From: Mycobacterium sp. Root265
GTDB lineage: Bacteria; Actinomycetota; Actinomycetes; Mycobacteriales; Mycobacteriaceae
Direction: 5' to 3'
NCBI RefSeq assembly: GCF_001428895.1
Contig: NZ_LMJA01000001.1
Span: 63,150-127,149, forward strand
Length of the DNA stretch: 64,000 nt
A program made the position numbers and the translations under genes. Below, one piece after another: positions 52,946 to 64,000 of the stretch (position 1 is the first letter of the stretch; every line of letters begins with the position of its first letter). The notes under the pieces were generated by a model, which saw only the letters and a program-made list of their open reading frames with translations, did no database searches and had not been told where the DNA came from.

Positions 52946-53845
52946 ATGACTCCCTTGACAGATACCGTGGAGGGTACGGGTGTAGAGCGAATGGCGAAGG
53001 CCATCGACATCGTGGTCGGCGCTATTGCCAGCAAACAGAATGATCATCGCGAGAACTGTGATTGTGTGCGCGAAGCGGATATCGGTAGCGCGGTGGAGGG
53101 TACGGCTCGGCCGACCGTGACCGTCGTGATCCCGACCCGCAACGAGGCGCGGAACCTGCCCTATGTCGCAAAACGGATGCCCCCGGTCGACCAGATCATC
53201 GTCGTCGACGGTTCATCGGTCGACAATACGATCGAGGTTGCCCGCCAATTGTGGCCGGATGCGCTGATCATCAACCAGTCCCGACGCGGCAAGGGCAATG
53301 CACTGGCATGCGCCTTCGAGGTGAGCACGTGCGACATCGTGGTGATGATCGATGCCGACGGGTCCACCGACCCGGCCGAGATCCCGGATTTCGTTGCGGC
53401 ACTGGTGTCGGGCGCCGACTTCGCGAAAGGCAGCCGCTTCACGAGCTCCGGTGGCAGCGATGACATCACCCAGCTGCGGCGGCTCGGGAACAAGGGTCTC
53501 AACTGGCTGGTGAACCAGCTGTTTGCCACGAAATTCACCGATCTTTGCTACGGGTACAACGCTTTCTGGCGCGAGCACCTCACGGTGCTCGATCTGCCCC
53601 GCACGGATGTCCAGGAAGCGCAATGGGGTGACGGGTTCGAGATCGAGACCGTCATCAACGTCCGCGTCGCCCGCAACGGACTGAAGATCAAAGAGGTCAG
53701 CAGTTTCGAGGGAAAGCGCATCTACGGGCGCAGCAACCTCAATGCGGTGACCGACGGTCTGCGGGTGCTGCGCACGATAGGTCGCGAACGTCGACTGCAT
53801 CGTTCTGCCACCGCGCCGGCAAAAGCGCCGGCGACATCGCGATGA
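52946..53845 (+). CDS. family 2 glycosyltransferase (GT-A fold)
   Basis: A 299-residue inverting-type glycosyltransferase. Residues about 56-250 carry the GT-A fold: VTVVIPTRNEARNL, IIVVDGSSVDNT, the SRRGKGNAL motif and the metal-binding DxD in MIDADGSTDP. It resembles polyprenyl-phosphate sugar transferases but lacks C-terminal membrane helices. The first 50 residues are unlike the family and more A/T-rich, so the true start may be later. It ends overlapping the FkbM gene by 4 bases (ATGA), so the two work together, probably on one glycan or glycolipid. Confidence 0.87.
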   Translation: MTPLTDTVEGTGVERMAKAIDIVVGAIASKQNDHRENCDCVREADIGSAVEGTARPTVTVVIPTRNEARNLPYVAKRMPPVDQIIVVDGSSVDNTIEVARQLWPDALIINQSRRGKGNALACAFEVSTCDIVVMIDADGSTDPAEIPDFVAALVSGADFAKGSRFTSSGGSDDITQLRRLGNKGLNWLVNQLFATKFTDLCYGYNAFWREHLTVLDLPRTDVQEAQWGDGFEIETVINVRVARNGLKIKEVSSFEGKRIYGRSNLNAVTDGLRVLRTIGRERRLHRSATAPAKAPATSR

Positions 53846-54663
53846 CGAAATTCCGTGAAAAGCTGGGGCACACGCTGTCGCTCGCGCAGAGCATCGGCAC
53901 CCTGTCCGCGCTGAATCTCGTGGCGCGACGCTCACTCGGCATGGCCAAACCCGTTGCGGTCACCTGCGGTGCGCATCGGCTGACGGTTCGCCCGCTGGAC
54001 AGTGACCCGTTCGTGCTCGCCCAGATCTTCACCGAGCGTGAGTATGACGCACGCCCGTTCTGGATGGAGCGGCTGAACGCCGTGGCGGCACAGTTGCGGC
54101 AGGCCGGACAGGTCCCGCTGATCATCGATGCCGGCGCGAATGTCGGCTACTCCGCGCTGTATCTGGCCGAACACTTCCCGGACGCCGTCATCCTCGCGGT
54201 GGAGCCGGACCGCCACTGCGTCGATCTCATCGAACGCAACTGTGCAGGCAACCCCAGGATCAGGCCCGTTCATGCGGCGGTGTGGAGCCACGAGAACGGC
54301 GTCGACCTGACAACGCGGGACGAGGGCTCCTGGGCCAACCGGGTGACCGATATCGGGACGACGCCCTCGGTGACGCTCGAGACGCTGATCGCCGAGATCC
54401 CGGACGCCGCGCCTTTCATCGTGAAGCTCGACATCGAGGGCGCGGAATCCGAGGTCTGCCAGGCCTCCCCGGGGGCCGTGGCGTCCTTCGCGTGCATCAT
54501 GATCGAGCCCCACGACTGGATGCTGCCGGGATCAGGCGGCCTTGCCCCGCTCTATGAAGCGGTCGCGGGTAAGAAGATGGACACCCTCATCCGGGACGAA
54601 ACCCTGATGCTCTTCGACTGTGCCGTGCTGGAACAGTTCAGTGCGGTGACGATCACTCACTGA
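53842..54663 (+). CDS. FkbM-family SAM-dependent methyltransferase
   Basis: A 273-residue methyltransferase. SAM motif I is IIDAGANVGYSALYLAE, followed by AVEPDRHCVDLIERN and the FkbM block FIVKLDIEGAESEV. FkbM enzymes O-methylate sugars or polyketide hydroxyls, for example in glycopeptidolipids. ATG at 53842 overlaps the preceding glycosyltransferase stop. The likely job is methylation of a sugar added by its partner (inference from pairing). Confidence 0.88.
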   Translation: MTKFREKLGHTLSLAQSIGTLSALNLVARRSLGMAKPVAVTCGAHRLTVRPLDSDPFVLAQIFTEREYDARPFWMERLNAVAAQLRQAGQVPLIIDAGANVGYSALYLAEHFPDAVILAVEPDRHCVDLIERNCAGNPRIRPVHAAVWSHENGVDLTTRDEGSWANRVTDIGTTPSVTLETLIAEIPDAAPFIVKLDIEGAESEVCQASPGAVASFACIMIEPHDWMLPGSGGLAPLYEAVAGKKMDTLIRDETLMLFDCAVLEQFSAVTITH

Positions 54664-56571: not shown

Positions 56572-59500
56572 TCAGAGCTGGTTCTGCTCCGCGGTGATCA
56601 TGTCGACGACCCGGCCGACATGCGGTTCACGCACCACCGAGTCGTGGTCACAGTTGATCCGCTGAACCGTGAGTGCGCCGGTGAGCACCTGCGGCCACAC
56701 CCGGTCGTCATCGCGGTTGAAGCTGCTGAGCACCAGCAGAGTTCGGCCCGGATACGGCTTCGGCCGGTGCAGTCGGCCCACCCGGACACCGACCTCCCGT
56801 AGCGCGGCGACCTTCTCCTCGGGTGTGCCGTCGATGATGCCGGCCATCGGCAGCCACAGCCGCTGACGCCACAGCACGGCCGCGGCCGCCGGCGGCTGCT
56901 CCAGCAGTGTCGATCCGACATCGGGCAGCTCACGCCGTGCGGCGCGGACCGTACGAGGCGGCAGGAAGGGATCGAGCAGGGTGACCAGTTCCACCTCGTG
57001 ACCCAGCGCCCTCAGCCGGTTCGCGATGTCGATCGCGATGAAAGCGCCCAGGGAGTGCCCGGCCAGGGTGTAGGGCCCTGTCGGCTGCAGCGCCAACAGA
57101 TCCCGCAGATGGCGCCGGGCTGCGCGACCGATCGTCCAGTCGGGGAACGCCCGGTTCTCCAGCCCCTGCGCCTGGAAGGCGACGACGGCGGTGTCCCGGT
57201 CCAGGCGGTCGGTCAGCGGTACGAACGACAGTGCCGAGGCGCCCGCACCCGCGAAGCAGAACAAGGTCTTTCGGGTGCTGTCGGTCGGGGGGCGCAGCAG
57301 CACCGTTGTCGGCGCGATCCGCTTGTCCCGGCCGACGGCATCGCCGGCCAGGCGTCCCGCCACGACCTCGGTGAACTTCGCGACGGTCGGTGCGACCGCC
57401 AGGTCCGAGGAGGCCAGCCGCACGCCGTGCTGCTCGCCGACCAGGCTGATCATCTGCTGGACGTTCAGCGAATCCCCGCCCAGCGCATAGAAATTCTCGT
57501 CGCGTCCGACCTGACTCAGGCGCAGGACATCCGACCACGCGGTGGCGACCTCGGTCTCCAGACCGGGTTCGGCGGGCACGATCGGCCCGCGGGTCGGCGC
57601 GGGCAGTGCTCTGCGGTCGACCTTTCCGCGTTCGTTGCGGGGCAGGGCCTCCAGCATCACGACATGCGTCGGAACCATCCAGGCGGGCAGCCTGGTGTGC
57701 AACTGGGCACGCACGTCGGCCACCGCGGGGCTGCGGATCTCGGGATCGGGCGCCACATACGCGGTCAGTACCGGTGTCTCGGCGAGTTGGTCGGCGACCA
57801 CCAGCGCCTCCCGGATCCCGGGGCAGTCGAGCAGGGCGGCCTCCACCTCGGCCGGTTCGACCAGGTACCCGCGGATCTTCACCGCGGCATCCACCCGCCC
57901 GAGCACCACGAGCACGCCGTCATCGGTGATGCGGGCGCGGTCGTTGGTGACGAATGTGCGGCTGCCGTCCGGGTTCTCGGTGAAGGTCGTGGAGGCGCTG
58001 TCGGGTTTGAGGTAGCCGGCGGCCAGGTACGGCGAGGTGACCGTCAACTGGCCGTGATCGTCGATGCCGAGTTGCTTGTGCGGTACCGCGACGCCGGCCG
58101 GGATGACACCGGCCGGGATCTCGTCGCCCGGCCAGATGTCGAAGTGCGCGATGCCCAGTGTCTCCGACGAGCCCGCCCAGTTGGTGAGCCCGGCATGGGG
58201 CGCGAGCTCGCGGGCCCGGCGGACCACGTTGCTGTAGATGGGTTCCCCGGTGGTGACGATGCGCTGCACCCGGTGCAGGACGCGATCGCCGGCGGCCTCG
58301 GTCAGCGACTGCAGGAACGACGGCGTGCACATCACGATATCGGTGTCGGCGAGCCGGTCGATCGCGGCTTCGGGGGTGCAGTTGCGGGGATCGATGGCGA
58401 TGATCTCGGCACCCGACAGCAATGCCCCCACCAGCACGTTGAGCCCGGCCGCGAAACTCACCGGCATGCACAGTGCGACCTTGCTGTCCTCGACGATGCC
58501 GAACCGGTCGCGATGCAGAATCCAGTCGCTCAACCAGGTTCCGTGCACATGCAGCACGGCCTTGGGCTCACCGGAGGATCCGGAGGTGAACTGGATGCTG
58601 GTCACCGTCTGCCTGCCGAGGACAGGCGCGGCTGTGGACGGTCCGGTCGGTTGCGGCGGCCTGGCGGCCGGCCACACCGTGTGGTCCTTGCCGAGTTCGT
58701 GTCCCAGCGGGTTGCCGGCGTCGTCCATGACGATGGTGTCGAGTCGGTAGCCCTGCTCCCGCAGCGCGTCGAAGATGTGCGTCATCCGGTCCTGCGGCAG
58801 TGCGGGATCCAGCGGGACCAGCGGTGCGCCGGCGGCGAAACTGCCGAGGACCACCGCGGTGGTGTGCGGGTTCAGATCGCCCACCATGGCCAGGGCGGAC
58901 CCGGCCTCGTCACGCGCACGCAGCGCCGACGTCCACGCCGCGGCGGCCGATCGCAGCGCACCGTAGGTGATCGATCCGTGCTCGGTGCGCAGCGCCACCT
59001 GGTTGTGCTTCTGCTCGGCGATCTGCTCGAAACGCTGGCTCACCGAATCGAATTCGATCGGAGCTACATGCGAGAGATCGGGCCGGACGACGGCCCGCAC
59101 CGGACTGTCGAGGGTCTGCCCGCGCGGGGTCGCCGCAACCTTGCGCAGCAGCGCCACGGTGGGGAGCAGGACGACCAGCGTGATGAGCAGCTCGCCGGCG
59201 ACGTAGGTGTATCCGACCGCGTTGATACCCCAGCGCGGCGTGGTGAGAATGACGCCGACGACCACCAGCACACCCAGCAGCACCTGCGAGATGACGGCCA
59301 GCCGCAGTGTGCGTTGCAGGCGCGCCAGCGCGGTGTAGATCGTGGTCAGCGCGACGGCGGGCAGCACCAGCGCCATGATCCTGATCAGCGTGGTCCCGTT
59401 CTCCGCGTACCGCGGACCCAGGATGCCCAGGATGAACGGCGCCAACACCATCAGCGTCACACAGCCCGCCACCGCAGATCCGCCACACAGCAGGACGAAT

Positions 59501-60486
59501 CGCTTGGTGCAGGCCCGCACATCGGCTCCGGGCGTCGATGCCGCGGCGATGAACGGGGCCGACGTCGCGACGATCAGGGCGCCGAGGGTGTTGACCACCA
59601 ACCAGCACATCGAGAAATAGGCGTTCATCTCGGTGCCCAGTTGCGCGACGACGATGAGCGGCACCAGGAGCGGGACGATCACGTTGATGGCGTTGATGGC
59701 ATAGGAGCTGGCGAAGAAGGTGAACAGCTCGCGGCGGGCCGGCAGGTTCGGCGTCCCGGTCCGGGTGCCGGTCTCGCGGCGGATGATGACGACCGCGATG
59801 ACGGCCGTGATGGCGGCCGCCGGCAGCACCCAGGACCAGACGATCGCGGCGCCGGTCGCCAGCGGGATGAGCGCGGCGACGACAATCAGCTTTACCGTGG
59901 ACTGACTGATGTTCTTGATCGCGATCGTGCGCGCCCGGCTCAACCCGATCAGGATCTGATCCTGCAGGGCGTAGATCGCCAGGACCGCGACGAACAGCGG
60001 GAAGAGCAGCATCTCAACCCAATTCGGGAAGAGCTGTGTCCGCGGCCCCACGCCGAGGAAGATGACTCCGAACAGCAGCGCGGCGCAGGCGACGAACGCG
60101 GTGCCCTCGTGCACCAGGCGCTGGGTGCGTGCCCCTGCCAGGGGCAGAAACCGCTCGTAGAGGCTGCCGAGGCTGAAGTTCGCGAGGATGGCGATCAGGG
60201 TCGCCGAGGAGATGATGGCCGAGGCGCGGCCGACCTCCGCGGTGTCATAGCCGCGCGCTGCCACCGTCCAGAAGACGAACCCGAGGATGCCGGTCGCTGC
60301 GCTCGATGTCATCACCGCGACGATGTCGATACCGAGACCGCCGCCCTTGTCGTGTGGGCCCGGATTCCGTGGCAGCACGGGGTCGGCTCCGGAACCCGTC
60401 ACCGCGGCGACCGGCGCCCCCAGTTCGTCAGCCAGAGTGGGTTTTTGCTGCGTGCGCAGGGCGTCGGGGCTGCCAGTGGTCGGCAT
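56572..60486 (-). CDS. flippase fused to NRPS-like adenylation-carrier-thioesterase module
   Basis: A single 1304-residue frame with two unrelated halves. Residues about 51-450 have about 12-14 membrane segments in the pattern of MOP/Wzx-type polysaccharide flippases (GIDIVAVMTSSAATGILGFV at the start). Residues about 480-960 are an AMP-binding domain: P-loop FTSGSSGEPKA (633-643), GRVDAAVKIRGY (863-874) and catalytic Lys955 in RNERGKVDRR. A carrier domain (about 975-1045) has GGDSL with Ser1006 for phosphopantetheine. A thioesterase domain (about 1073-1300) has GHSLG (Ser1145), D1172 and H1281. There is no condensation domain. The usual substrate-anchoring Asp of amino-acid adenylation domains is Ala679. 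An iron-box-like site lies upstream. Likely role: activate, tether and release a small acyl unit at the membrane, linked to export (inference). Confidence 0.88.
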   Translation of the reverse strand: MPTTGSPDALRTQQKPTLADELGAPVAAVTGSGADPVLPRNPGPHDKGGGLGIDIVAVMTSSAATGILGFVFWTVAARGYDTAEVGRASAIISSATLIAILANFSLGSLYERFLPLAGARTQRLVHEGTAFVACAALLFGVIFLGVGPRTQLFPNWVEMLLFPLFVAVLAIYALQDQILIGLSRARTIAIKNISQSTVKLIVVAALIPLATGAAIVWSWVLPAAAITAVIAVVIIRRETGTRTGTPNLPARRELFTFFASSYAINAINVIVPLLVPLIVVAQLGTEMNAYFSMCWLVVNTLGALIVATSAPFIAAASTPGADVRACTKRFVLLCGGSAVAGCVTLMVLAPFILGILGPRYAENGTTLIRIMALVLPAVALTTIYTALARLQRTLRLAVISQVLLGVLVVVGVILTTPRWGINAVGYTYVAGELLITLVVLLPTVALLRKVAATPRGQTLDSPVRAVVRPDLSHVAPIEFDSVSQRFEQIAEQKHNQVALRTEHGSITYGALRSAAAAWTSALRARDEAGSALAMVGDLNPHTTAVVLGSFAAGAPLVPLDPALPQDRMTHIFDALREQGYRLDTIVMDDAGNPLGHELGKDHTVWPAARPPQPTGPSTAAPVLGRQTVTSIQFTSGSSGEPKAVLHVHGTWLSDWILHRDRFGIVEDSKVALCMPVSFAAGLNVLVGALLSGAEIIAIDPRNCTPEAAIDRLADTDIVMCTPSFLQSLTEAAGDRVLHRVQRIVTTGEPIYSNVVRRARELAPHAGLTNWAGSSETLGIAHFDIWPGDEIPAGVIPAGVAVPHKQLGIDDHGQLTVTSPYLAAGYLKPDSASTTFTENPDGSRTFVTNDRARITDDGVLVVLGRVDAAVKIRGYLVEPAEVEAALLDCPGIREALVVADQLAETPVLTAYVAPDPEIRSPAVADVRAQLHTRLPAWMVPTHVVMLEALPRNERGKVDRRALPAPTRGPIVPAEPGLETEVATAWSDVLRLSQVGRDENFYALGGDSLNVQQMISLVGEQHGVRLASSDLAVAPTVAKFTEVVAGRLAGDAVGRDKRIAPTTVLLRPPTDSTRKTLFCFAGAGASALSFVPLTDRLDRDTAVVAFQAQGLENRAFPDWTIGRAARRHLRDLLALQPTGPYTLAGHSLGAFIAIDIANRLRALGHEVELVTLLDPFLPPRTVRAARRELPDVGSTLLEQPPAAAAVLWRQRLWLPMAGIIDGTPEEKVAALREVGVRVGRLHRPKPYPGRTLLVLSSFNRDDDRVWPQVLTGALTVQRINCDHDSVVREPHVGRVVDMITAEQNQL

Positions 60487-60561
60487 GGGGGTGTGGTCCT
60501 AGCGGGAGGTGTGAGAGGGCGGGGAGTGCCGCCGAAAAGGAGAATACTGACTCGACGCAGA

Positions 60562-60580
60562 ATTGGTTAGCCTACCCAAA
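60562..60580. promoter_or_regulatory. IdeR/DtxR-type iron box
   Basis: ATTGGTTAGCCTACCCAAA matches 15 of 19 positions of the mycobacterial IdeR consensus TTAGGTTAGCCTAACCTAA (a palindrome, so orientation does not matter). It lies 76 bases upstream of the fusion-gene ATG (60486) and 178 bases upstream of the DUF998 gene on the other strand. IdeR with Fe2+ represses siderophore and iron-uptake genes through such boxes, so the fusion gene is probably induced by iron limitation. The match was scored by hand. Confidence 0.6.
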
Positions 60581-60757
60581 TCAGTGATGCGCATCATACT
60601 GGTAGAGGTAGCTGCCCAAACGGCGTCAGGTGTTGCTAATCTCCGGTGCAGTCGAGTCGAACTGCGTTGCGCTGACGGTTTTTCCGTTGCCCGGATGGCG
60701 AGCAACGCGTTTTGTGAGTCGTCTCTTGGTGATCAGGGAAAGCCTCCGCATCGGAGG

Positions 60758-61423
60758 ATGGTGAGATACGTGCGTCCGTTAGTTCCAGCCCGGCTCACCG
60801 GGTGGGTATCGCTGGTACCGCTGGTGTACTTCGCCGCCGAGTGGGTGGTCTCGGCTTCGTGGCGCGGTCTCTACGGCTACCGCGACGATCTGGTCGGGCC
60901 GCTGGGAATCGCGTTCTGCGGACCGGTGGGCAACTGGCCGTGCAGCGAGTTGTACCGGGTGATGAATGTCGGCTTGGTGGCAACGGGTTCGGCCATCGCC
61001 TTTGTCGCGGCCGGCCTGTTCGCACAACGTCTGACCGACCGCGGCACCGCCCTGCTGCTGCTGGTGTCGGGACTGGCCCTGGCCGCCGGTGGCGTGATCA
61101 CCCAGAACGTGAGCTACGCCTGGAACATCACCGCCACGGTGGTGTTCATGACGCTGGGATCGGTGAGCGCGCTGTTGATCGCGGTGACCTCGCCGGCCGA
61201 GATGTCGGGGGAGCGCCGCGGCATCGCGGTGGTCGCCGGCCTGACCGGACTGTTCGGATACCTCGTGTACGCGGGTGGGCAGGACATCTTCGGCCCCGGT
61301 GGGGCCCAGCGGCTGTGCATCTACGGAATTCTGGTCGTCGTCATCACCGTCGGGACCGCGGGATTCGTGACGGCACCGGTCCGGGACGGCGGCATGCGTG
61401 AGCTCGTCGAGCAAACACGATGA
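60758..61423 (+). CDS. DUF998-family membrane protein
   Basis: A polytopic protein of about 221 residues with six membrane segments. The YRDDLVGPLGIAFCG region followed by a cysteine and YRVMNVGLVATG is the pattern of DUF998, a family without known function. The start is uncertain: GGAGG (60753-60757) abuts ATG 60758, so GTG at 60761 or 60770 may be the true start. It is divergent from the flippase fusion gene and shares a 271-base control region with it. The next gene starts 19 bases after its stop, so they are likely co-transcribed. Confidence 0.75.
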   Translation: MVRYVRPLVPARLTGWVSLVPLVYFAAEWVVSASWRGLYGYRDDLVGPLGIAFCGPVGNWPCSELYRVMNVGLVATGSAIAFVAAGLFAQRLTDRGTALLLLVSGLALAAGGVITQNVSYAWNITATVVFMTLGSVSALLIAVTSPAEMSGERRGIAVVAGLTGLFGYLVYAGGQDIFGPGGAQRLCIYGILVVVITVGTAGFVTAPVRDGGMRELVEQTR

Positions 61424-61442: not shown

Positions 61443-63638
61443 ATGACCGCGACGCTCGAGCCGACCGTCGGCGATATCGCTTCCGAGACCGCGGCTCAGC
61501 CCGTCCGGTACCGGGTGCCGGTGCTGCGGTTGCGGCAGGCCGATCTCGCGGTCGTCGGCGCGCTCGCCGGCGTGCTCGCGCTGACCGGTCTTCCGGACGG
61601 GGTGCGCGCGCTGGGGCTGATGGTGTTCATCGCCGTCGGTCCCGGTGCGGCGGTGCTCACCTGGGTGCGTATCCCGCGGCGGGCCCTGTTGTCCACGGTG
61701 CCGTTGCTGGGGGCGGCCATCACCACGTTGGTGGCGATGGCCGCGATGTGGTCATACCGGTGGAGCCCGCCCGAGATCCTGTGGGTGCAGATCGTCGCGG
61801 TGTGCGGCAGTAGCGCCTACTGGTACCACCGCAACCGCGATACGCCGCTGACTGCCATGCGCCGGGTGCGGTGGCGGCTGGTCGCCGCTGCGGGGCCGGC
61901 CGGCGAGTCTGTTGTCCGCAAACACCTTTCGCTGCTGCTGAGCGTGGTGGCCCTGGCGATCTGGCTGGCCGCCGTGCCCGGACTGCCCGGGGTGGAGGCC
62001 AGCTACTACGGCCTGCTGTTCTCCGGGACGGGCCCGTTGCTGGCGGTGTGCATCGTGCTGTGCGCGTGGGCGTTGCTGGTGGCGGTGCGTGACCGCCGGC
62101 TGATTCCGGCGGCGGTCGCGGTCGGGGCGGCGATCATCGTCTCCCGGGGCACCACCGTGGTGGCCACTGAGGTTCCACTCTATGACTGGACCTACAAGCA
62201 TCTCGCGGTGGTCGACTACATCCTGGTGAACGGCCGCATCGCGCCGGACGGCACCGACATCTACGCCCAATGGTCGGCCTTCTTCGTGATGTTCGCCTGG
62301 TTCAGTGACGTCACCGGCATCGCCCCGATGACCATCGCCCATGTCTTCGCTCCGGTCATCCACGTGCTCATCGCACTTGCCGTGTACTGCGCGGCGCGGG
62401 TCCTCGGACGCTCGCGGCGCACCGCGATCACGGCGGCCTTCCTGGCCGAGGTGTTCAACTGGGTGGGCCAGGACTACTTTTCGCCGCAGGCATGGTCGTT
62501 GGCACTGGCCTTCGGCATGATCGTGCTGCTGCTGGCATCACCACGCAGCCGTGCCAGCGGTGTGCTGGCCATCGTGGTGTTCGCCGCGACGGTGCCCACC
62601 CACCAGCTGACCCCGTTCTGGGCGGTCGCGGTGGCGTGCCTGCTGTGCGTGTTCAGGCGTGCCCGGCCCTGGTGGATCTCGGTGGTCATGGTGACGATCG
62701 TCGGCAGCTATCTGTTGCTCAACCTGGAGGCGGTGTTGCCCTACGGTGTGTTCTCCGGCAGCAGCGTGGTGAGCAACGCCACCAGCAACGTGGTGAGTTC
62801 CGGTATGCCCGCCAAGGATTTCACCTCGGCAGTGGTGCGCGCGTTGTCCCTGACGGTGGTGGCGACGGCCTTCTGCAGCGCGATCTGGTTGTGGCGGCGC
62901 AAGCGTCCGATGGTCGGCCTGTCCATCGTGGCGTTCTCGTCGTTCGGTCTGCTGCTGGGACAGAACTACGGCGGTGAGGCGATCTTCCGGGTGTATCTGT
63001 ACGCCCTGCTCGGTTGCGCGATCCTGATCGCACCCGCGGTGGTGGCCGGCGTGGACCGGAATCGGGTCGGCCCGCGCGCCGCCCTCACCCGGGTGATCGC
63101 GGTGCTCGGACTGAGCGGGGTGTCACTGGCCGGCCTGCACGGCTACGTCGCGCTGTGGCCGATGGTGCTGGAAACCCGCGCCCAGGTCGACCTGATGAAC
63201 TCGATCACCACCGACGCGGATCTGCGCACCCGCCTGGTGATGATGCGTCTCGGCGGGATGCCCACCCGGCTGAACGCCGACTACGCCGACGTGGTGTATT
63301 TCAACCCGTACTTCGACGAGACGATCGCCTACGACCTGTGGGACGGCCAGGACCCGAATCTCGCGGAGCGCAAGAAGAACTTCCCCGCCGACAACGACAT
63401 CGACATGCTCAACGACAACGCCACCCGCGAGGCGTACATGGCGTACCTGATGTTCAGCGAGCAGTCGAACAAGGCCCTGCGGTACTACGGCGACTACCGT
63501 CCCGAGGCGATCGAGATCCTGCAGGACGCGCTCCGCAGCTCGCCGAACTGGTCGGTGTTCTACGAGGACGGCGCCACGCTGGTGTTCCGCAGTGTCAACC
63601 ACGAGAACGCGGCCGAAGGAGAGTCGGACGGTGGCTGA
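61443..63638 (+). CDS. large polytopic membrane protein, GT-C-like
   Basis: A protein of about 731 residues with roughly 13-15 membrane segments between residues 35 and 580 and an extracytoplasmic C-terminal part (about 585-731) containing a MRLGGMPTRLNADYADVVYF block and many aromatic and charged residues. The layout, with an early loop carrying acidic residues, resembles lipid-linked sugar-dependent (GT-C) glycosyltransferases, but no diagnostic motif lets me be sure. ATG at 61443 is preferred; GTG at 61398 would overlap the DUF998 gene. Its stop is inside the next gene's start region (8-base overlap), which ties it to that glycosyltransferase. Confidence 0.75.
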   Translation: MTATLEPTVGDIASETAAQPVRYRVPVLRLRQADLAVVGALAGVLALTGLPDGVRALGLMVFIAVGPGAAVLTWVRIPRRALLSTVPLLGAAITTLVAMAAMWSYRWSPPEILWVQIVAVCGSSAYWYHRNRDTPLTAMRRVRWRLVAAAGPAGESVVRKHLSLLLSVVALAIWLAAVPGLPGVEASYYGLLFSGTGPLLAVCIVLCAWALLVAVRDRRLIPAAVAVGAAIIVSRGTTVVATEVPLYDWTYKHLAVVDYILVNGRIAPDGTDIYAQWSAFFVMFAWFSDVTGIAPMTIAHVFAPVIHVLIALAVYCAARVLGRSRRTAITAAFLAEVFNWVGQDYFSPQAWSLALAFGMIVLLLASPRSRASGVLAIVVFAATVPTHQLTPFWAVAVACLLCVFRRARPWWISVVMVTIVGSYLLLNLEAVLPYGVFSGSSVVSNATSNVVSSGMPAKDFTSAVVRALSLTVVATAFCSAIWLWRRKRPMVGLSIVAFSSFGLLLGQNYGGEAIFRVYLYALLGCAILIAPAVVAGVDRNRVGPRAALTRVIAVLGLSGVSLAGLHGYVALWPMVLETRAQVDLMNSITTDADLRTRLVMMRLGGMPTRLNADYADVVYFNPYFDETIAYDLWDGQDPNLAERKKNFPADNDIDMLNDNATREAYMAYLMFSEQSNKALRYYGDYRPEAIEILQDALRSSPNWSVFYEDGATLVFRSVNHENAAEGESDGG

Positions 63639-64000
63639 CACCCTGCCGGTCACCGCTACCCGGCTGTCGGTCGTGGTGTGTTGCTACACCGCGGCACGGC
63701 GGGCGCAGGTGCTGCGTGTCGTCGAATCGGCGCTGAACCAGGTCGCCGGCAACGGGGACGAGATCATTGTCGTCGTCGACCACAACGACGAGCTGCGCGA
63801 CGATCTGTCGACCGCACTACCGGAGTCGATCATCCTCATTCCGAACACCTTTGAACGTGGACTGTCCGGTGCCCGCAACACCGGGGTGGGGCGTGCGGGC
63901 AATGAGGTCGTGGTGTTCGTCGACGATGACGCGGTGCTCACCCCGGGTGCACTCGACGGCGCGCGGCAGGCGTTCGACGATCCGTCGATCGTCGCGATCG
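63631..64000 (+). CDS. family 2 glycosyltransferase, 3' end outside window
   Basis: The first 123 residues of a GT-A glycosyltransferase, open to the end of the window. LSVVVCCYTAARRAQVLRVV starts the fold, followed by EIIVVVDHNDELRDDL, the acceptor-site-like RGLSGARNTGVGRA and the metal-binding FVDDDAVLTP. GTG at 63631 overlaps the membrane-protein gene by 8 bases and has AAGGAGA at 63616-63622. Family assignment is firm; the sugar and acceptor are unknown. Confidence 0.88.
   Translation, partial: MADTLPVTATRLSVVVCCYTAARRAQVLRVVESALNQVAGNGDEIIVVVDHNDELRDDLSTALPESIILIPNTFERGLSGARNTGVGRAGNEVVVFVDDDAVLTPGALDGARQAFDDPSIVAI

Follow-up and report, generated by a model that had tools for sequence, protein, structure and literature searches.

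A Wzx-like flippase domain fused to an adenylation-carrier-thioesterase module is conserved within Mycobacterium and may tailor a lipid-linked glycan

Here, we describe a gene in a 64,000-nucleotide stretch of the Mycobacterium sp. Root265 genome (hereafter the window) whose product joins a flippase of the MOP/Wzx type to an adenylation (A), a peptidyl carrier protein (PCP) and a thioesterase (TE) domain in one chain. The architecture is real and conserved, each of its parts is of a known kind, and the novelty lies in their combination. On balance, we lean towards reading the protein as a tailoring flippase, whose cytosolic A-PCP-TE module would acylate a polyprenyl-linked glycan, most likely with an aryl acid, and whose fused flippase would export the product. 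The initial annotation of this DNA stands in part: the fusion (now known to be conserved) and its domains hold, the alternative of a glycan acceptor fits best, and its framing in terms of secondary metabolism is not supported.

Architecture and conservation of the fusion

The gene and its parts are laid out as follows:
56572..60486, minus strand: fused gene, MOP/Wzx-type flippase plus A-PCP-TE, 1304 amino acids, intact frame
59131..60348, minus strand: flippase domain, residues 47-452, from the AlphaFold2 (AF2) model and fold comparison
59032..59130, minus strand: linker, residues 453-485, sequence-variable
57622..59031, minus strand: adenylation domain, residues 486-955, A4 motif FAAG as against FD.S, A10 Lys955 kept
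57367..57552, minus strand: carrier (PCP) domain, residues 979-1040, GGDS with Ser1006
56593..57267, minus strand: thioesterase domain, residues 1074-1298, Ser1145 with Asp1172 and His1281 as plausible partners

The fusion of the two halves in a single uninterrupted frame, as first proposed, was confirmed over 1304 codons and is conserved in the genus. In the C-terminal half, Pfam places AMP-binding at residues 486-826, AMP-binding_C at 880-955, PP-binding at 979-1040 and Thioesterase at 1074-1298; the A, carrier and TE domains are all over the Pfam cut-off, with their catalytic residues present, and no condensation family is among the matches at E<=1. The domain search thereby bears out the early description of an A-PCP-TE module that has kept its catalytic residues and has no condensation domain. 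In alignments, the A domain has kept Lys642 and Lys955, and the two serines already named as catalytic positions are the right ones, Ser1006 lying in the GGDS motif of the carrier and Ser1145 in the GHSLG motif of the TE. By position and conservation, Asp1172 and His1281 plausibly complete the TE triad.

The MOP/Wzx-like domain that had been placed in the N-terminal part is supported by an AF2 model, which over residues ~47-452 adopts the WzxE/MurJ/MATE fold by structure comparison. Reading of the model suggests 12 transmembrane (TM) helices, in line with the 12-14 TM MOP fold of Wzx/MOP flippases. The Pfam family Polysacc_synt matches residues 55-292 with 22.7 bits, below its curated cut-off of 28.2, and the flippase profile found no match among PDB sequences at E<=10; because this sequence search came back empty, the assignment draws on the predicted fold and the sub-threshold Pfam match. 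The mean number of Lys and Arg residues is 18.5 on the N-terminal side of the domain and 2.8 on the opposite side, a positive-inside count by which both ends of the domain are probably cytosolic. By gene context, its cargo would be a lipid-linked oligosaccharide.

When 198 genomes of the genus were searched with the whole fused protein (E<=1e-100), 24 gave a match. The fusion is present in 12, the 11 copies besides that of the window being 55-93% identical to it, and 10 of the 12 are intact. This recurrence, together with codon statistics, led us to reject a chance open reading frame or an assembly error; the opposite strand holds a 1190-codon open frame, which is not among the frames listed in the codon-position statistics. 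A stop or frameshift near residue 460, which had been named as evidence against a fusion, was not seen, the linker being in frame in all aligned copies. Of note, both broken copies are interrupted inside the TE, by an early stop in G160 (L037) and by a frameshift in G056 (L046), and the latter genome carries a stand-alone A-PCP-TE ~12 kb from the broken fusion.

For the window copy against four relatives, dN/dS amounts to 0.07-0.22 in the flippase, 0.10-0.24 in the linker (taken as residues 451-480, 30 codons) and 0.08-0.41 in A, PCP and TE, the first 46 residues being the only loose part of the protein (0.31-1.37). The junction is thus constrained like the domains, and flippase, linker, A, PCP and TE are under purifying selection. 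Gene starts, and hence overlaps of a few bases, are approximate throughout, as they come from a home-made gene finder (codon log-odds and greedy choice); it clipped the fusion starts in L037 and L038, for which the longer frames were aligned, the L038 frame starting one codon past an ATG.

A scan of named genomes yielded 15 fused loci out of 21. They include M. frederiksbergense, bacteremicum, neoaurum, hippocampi, vanbaalenii, vaccae, pyrenivorans, austroafricanum, iranicum, fortunisiensis and palauense, besides four strains without a species name, and the remaining six (Lolliginicoccus, Rhodococcus, three from Pseudonocardia, and Frankia) have a flippase that is not joined to this module. 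In a sample of 298 genomes from the order, searched with the flippase profile and with all positives followed to their loci, 34 genomes were positive, five of them with a flippase fused to A-PCP-TE and all five within the genus; none of the 34 showed a fusion outside the genus, a search that diverged fusions would escape. Likewise, the whole protein (E<=1e-60) gave six positives in a sample of 396 genomes of the phylum, with a full-length match only in the window's genome and in G049.

Glycan-assembly neighbourhood and split relatives

The other genes of the cluster resemble a set for assembling lipid-linked oligosaccharides:
60487..60823, no strand: stretch between the fusion and a divergent gene set by gene coordinates, putative shared promoter region of both
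60824..61423, plus strand: membrane protein resembling DUF998 (25.4 bits as against a cut-off of 30), which clusters beside the fusion in relatives
61443..63638, plus strand: 731-residue multi-spanning protein, whose GT-C fold comes closest to oligosaccharyltransferases in VIA Z
63631..64000, plus strand: GT2 glycosyltransferase, start only, running past the window end in locus L035
52991..53845, plus strand: GT2 glycosyltransferase, with AglJ (TIGR04182) as its best-matching model
53842..54663, plus strand: FkbM-family methyltransferase, confined to the surroundings of the fusion's closest relatives

In L035, three more genes come after the GT2 gene at 63631, coding for a protein of 175 amino acids, a GH16-like protein and another GT2 of greater length; neighbouring genes overlap by 4 bases. 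AglJ, AglG and AglB form the N-glycosylation pathway of haloarchaea, and the likeness of the cluster to it is that its GT2s match the AglJ and AglG models best and that the GT-C fold is perhaps oligosaccharyltransferase-like by VIA. The GT2 scores are, in contrast, far below the equivalog cut-offs, at 129.6 of 325 bits for AglJ and, with the M. frederiksbergense-type copy (L036) of the gene at 63631, 151.4 of 440 bits for AglG. The 731-residue protein, which has no PDB sequence match and whose homologues lie near many flippase relatives, is perhaps oligosaccharyltransferase-like.

This neighbourhood bears on what the fusion is for. Its initial framing was that of natural-product synthesis and export; on such a reading, the module would set free a small acyl product, for which the MOP domain would act as a MATE-like exporter. 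We consider this unlikely, given that in 29 of 35 loci flippase relatives not fused to this module adjoin homologues of the GT2s or the GT-C protein of the cluster, that no second assembly-line enzyme is found among the scanned neighbours, and that the module has lost the Asp of motif A4 (see below). The alternative that had been offered, in which the product is released to a lipid- or glycan-linked acceptor while flipping takes place, fits the glycan-assembly neighbourhood best.

Outside the genus, the two halves are separate genes, often close together. Of these 35 neighbourhoods, in which the flippase is not fused to this module, seven contain a strong match to the family module (L077, L107, L108, L114, L120, L121 and L122). 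At the level of genomes, the A-PCP-TE profile (E<=1e-100) found no match in 22 of 32 flippase-positive genomes and a match in 10, three of them fused; six of the seven with an unfused flippase and a module have both within 10 kb, the exception being G142. In five of these six the genome has no other module match, and the chance of the two lying so close is 0.3-0.5% per genome, though three of the five belong to one genus. G310 has four more module copies elsewhere, and its flippase-linked copy is an A-PCP without TE. In Rhodococcus RD6.2, the order of genes is FAD monooxygenase, DhnA aldolase, dehydroquinate (DHQ) synthase II, luciferase-like protein, A-PCP-TE, Branch glycosyltransferase and flippase, with 4-base overlaps between the last three. 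Since the split halves are linked as neighbours in some other Mycobacteriales, the fused gene unites such neighbours.

Besides the fusions, 14 A-PCP-TEs that stand alone occur in the 198 genus genomes, and in two cases the genome has the fusion as well. In a FastTree tree of 34 A-PCP-TE sequences, in which some nodes are weak (0.42-0.85), these 14 form one clade (support 0.97) nested inside the fused forms, which suggests for the genus an old fusion and derived stand-alone modules. As 13 of the 14 stand-alone loci lack any nearby homologue of the GT2s or the GT-C protein of the cluster, this branch may do something else.

Substrate class of the adenylation domain

In the A domains of nonribosomal peptide synthetases (NRPSs), the Asp of motif A4 anchors the alpha-amino group of the substrate. 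The motif begins with FD in LgrA and reads FAAG in the window protein; among the 33 family sequences that span it, FAAG occurs 17 times, FAGG eight times, FGAG six times, and FGGG and FALG once each, but FD never. As a control, 13 distinct A domains that a pattern picked up in loci of the window's genome were read by eye: all 12 of NRPS type, 11 of them in the large C12 and C27 loci, have the Asp, whereas the one domain of CoA-ligase type does not. The label "NRPS-like" that had been given to the module therefore fits its A-PCP-TE domains but not its A4 motif, where Ala or Gly replaces Asp in 33 of 33 family sequences. In the window's genome (G000), C12:230868-259040 encodes a very large NRPS, with a 10316-codon frame and eight AMP-binding matches. 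The benzoate-CoA-ligase model TIGR02262 was uninformative in this genome, giving 91 matches, none over cut-off.

These data also speak to the idea that the fusion is an aminoacylating flippase, with an A domain that activates an alpha-amino acid and a lipid-linked glycan that is aminoacylated before flipping, in a Dlt-like manner. The best sequence matches of the A domain are indeed amino-acid NRPS A domains (LgrA), and DltA models match it too, the score with TIGR01734 being 130.2 of 559.85 bits and hence below DltA level. Against this stand the A4 motif, with Asp in 0 of 33 family sequences as opposed to all 12 NRPS-type A domains found in the same genome, and the precursor genes beside some relatives, which are of the aryl-acid type; we deem this explanation improbable.

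As to these precursor genes, four relatives (L043, L044, L045 and L126) have a DHQ synthase II gene immediately upstream of the fusion, overlapping it by 14 bases in L043 and L126 with starts as the gene finder places them. Before it comes a DhnA-type aldolase, assigned by Pfam in L043 and L044 and by cluster in L045; in the genome of L126 the aldolase is found further upstream, beside a second DHQ synthase, and the pair also occurs within the Rhodococcus RD6.2 operon. GriI and GriH, which are of these aldolase and DHQ-synthase-II kinds, make 3-amino-4-hydroxybenzoate (3,4-AHBA) (PMC8697445, PMC6692506). In NCBIfam, the aldolases and DHQ synthases of the relatives exceed the subfamily cut-offs of PRK07226 and PRK02290 without reaching the exception cut-offs set for BagB/FevI and BagC/FevH. 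With the 3,4-AHBA synthase BagC/FevH, to which they are nearest, the DHQ synthases reach about 390-426 bits as compared to at most about 248 with the archaeal equivalogs; for the aldolases, BagB/FevI and archaeal ADH synthase give similar scores. A second fusion, L126:811-2865 (G404; 684 amino acids), joins a DHQ synthase II to an AglG-like GT2, another link between genes of the aryl-acid type and glycan assembly.

DHQ synthase II is present in 5 of the 198 genus genomes, all within the 24 that carry the family A-PCP-TE (Fisher 1.8e-5, a value whose weight is lowered by genome kinship). In a chosen set of 60 genomes, it accompanies 4 of 15 fused and 2 of 12 stand-alone modules, 0 of 27 genus genomes without the module (25 of which were searched for it, with no match at E<=1e-100; G382 and G397 were left out) and 0 of 6 split cases from other genera. 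The two stand-alone cases have a triad of monooxygenase, aldolase and DHQ synthase on a different contig from the A-PCP-TE; the genes after the triad (L152 and L153; G014 and G052) resemble, by eye, the fusion flank of other species in size and order. The pocket class FGAG/SSEA accompanies DHQ synthase II in 6 of 6 genus genomes, compared to 0 of 21 other module-bearing ones, yet the Rhodococcus protein is not of this class despite its aldolase and DHQ synthase II genes. In G310, the gene that overlaps the flippase-linked A-PCP by 4 bases gives a weak, partial match to the Rv2949c-like chorismate-lyase family (28 bits, cut-off 22; positions 74-145 of 149), a family found in 4 of 63 genomes and linked to the module only in G310. 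Family searches of the window's genome returned neither a DHQ synthase II (3,4-AHBA-synthase family) nor an Rv2949c-type lyase. Because 3,4-AHBA-type genes or the chorismate-lyase match adjoin some relatives, part of the module family looks to use aryl acids, judging from these sequence-based associations.

Proposed tailoring before flipping and its relation to known systems

Taken as a tailoring flippase, the fusion would work as follows. GT2 enzymes of the cluster would build a polyprenyl-phosphate-linked oligosaccharide on the cytosolic side, while the A domain would activate a carboxylic acid without an alpha-amino group, most likely an aryl acid of the hydroxy- or aminobenzoate type, and load it onto Ser1006 of the carrier. 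The TE might then hand the acyl group to a hydroxyl or an amine on a sugar of the lipid-linked glycan, after which the Wzx-type flippase would move the acylated lipid outward and the GT-C protein could pass the glycan on. In this scheme, we infer the cytosolic placement, the aryl substrate of the window's protein, the glycan acceptor, the order of acylation before flipping, the bond and the coupling. A more specific version, in which the aryl acyl group on a transporter-tethered phosphopantetheine arm goes to the lipid-linked glycan and licenses its flipping, giving a mycobacterial envelope glycan decorated with aminohydroxybenzoyl or hydroxybenzoyl groups, appears doubtful as a whole. If the tailoring reading is right, carrier-protein chemistry would be covalently tied to a lipid flippase, and environmental mycobacteria would be predicted to bear aryl-acylated envelope glycans.

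Each neighbouring system shares a part of this picture. WzxE, as a representative of Wzx/MOP flippases, is ~15% identical to the fused flippase, which bears in addition an 850-residue A-PCP-TE tail. epsilon-Poly-lysine synthetase has A-PCP and C-terminal membrane helices in one chain, those helices forming peptide bonds, whereas the fusion has an N-terminal MOP flippase plus a TE. Pks13 is a polyketide synthase with a fatty substrate and no known transporter in its chain, and the coupling by MmpL7, an RND transporter for a polyketide product, is one of protein interaction, as opposed to the single polypeptide seen here. With the pathways to 3,4-AHBA (grixazone, bagremycin/ferroverdin), some relatives share the aldolase and DHQ-synthase-II pair in their operon, but here A, PCP and TE are in one chain with a flippase, and the window's genome is without the DHQ synthase family. 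The Pks13 TE of mycobacteria releases its acyl chain onto polyols, with trehalose preferred (PMC9210659). Transfer by a TE to a sugar thus has a mycobacterial precedent, and it is in this sugar-type acceptor that Pks13 would resemble the fusion. Similarly, MmpL7 is cited as coupling a lipid synthase and an exporter in a mycobacterium (Jain and Cox 2005, as cited in PMC1885439), a precedent for synthase-exporter coupling. Judged by titles and the beginnings of abstracts, the open-access literature searched contained neither a flippase-A-PCP-TE fusion nor a link of aminohydroxybenzoyl or 3-amino-4-hydroxybenzoate compounds with mycobacteria.

A tailoring flippase has to be weighed, finally, against a reading in which the fusion fixes a one-to-one enzyme ratio at the membrane, with no hand-over and with flipping independent of acylation. 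The two share their biochemistry and differ in the coupling, and their probabilities overlap. In favour of co-regulation only, stand-alone A-PCP-TEs exist in 12 of the 198 genus genomes without the fusion, and flippase relatives are fused to other enzymes as well, namely to a C-methyltransferase (PF08421/PF13489/PF08484) in L109:9388-12015 (G385; 875 amino acids) and to a PIG-L de-N-acetylase in L134:9328-11505 (G216; 725 amino acids). We assign this reading a minority share of the probability, though an appreciable one. If the tailoring reading is right, the fusion of flippase relatives to at least two other enzymes would also provide a system for asking whether glycan tailoring gates flipping. 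Long C-terminal parts with no match to the A-PCP-TE profile follow flippase relatives in two further open frames, of 1361 amino acids (L176:6884-10966; G216) and, in a protein with no Pfam match at E<=0.001, of 1068 amino acids (L136:9446-12652; G200).

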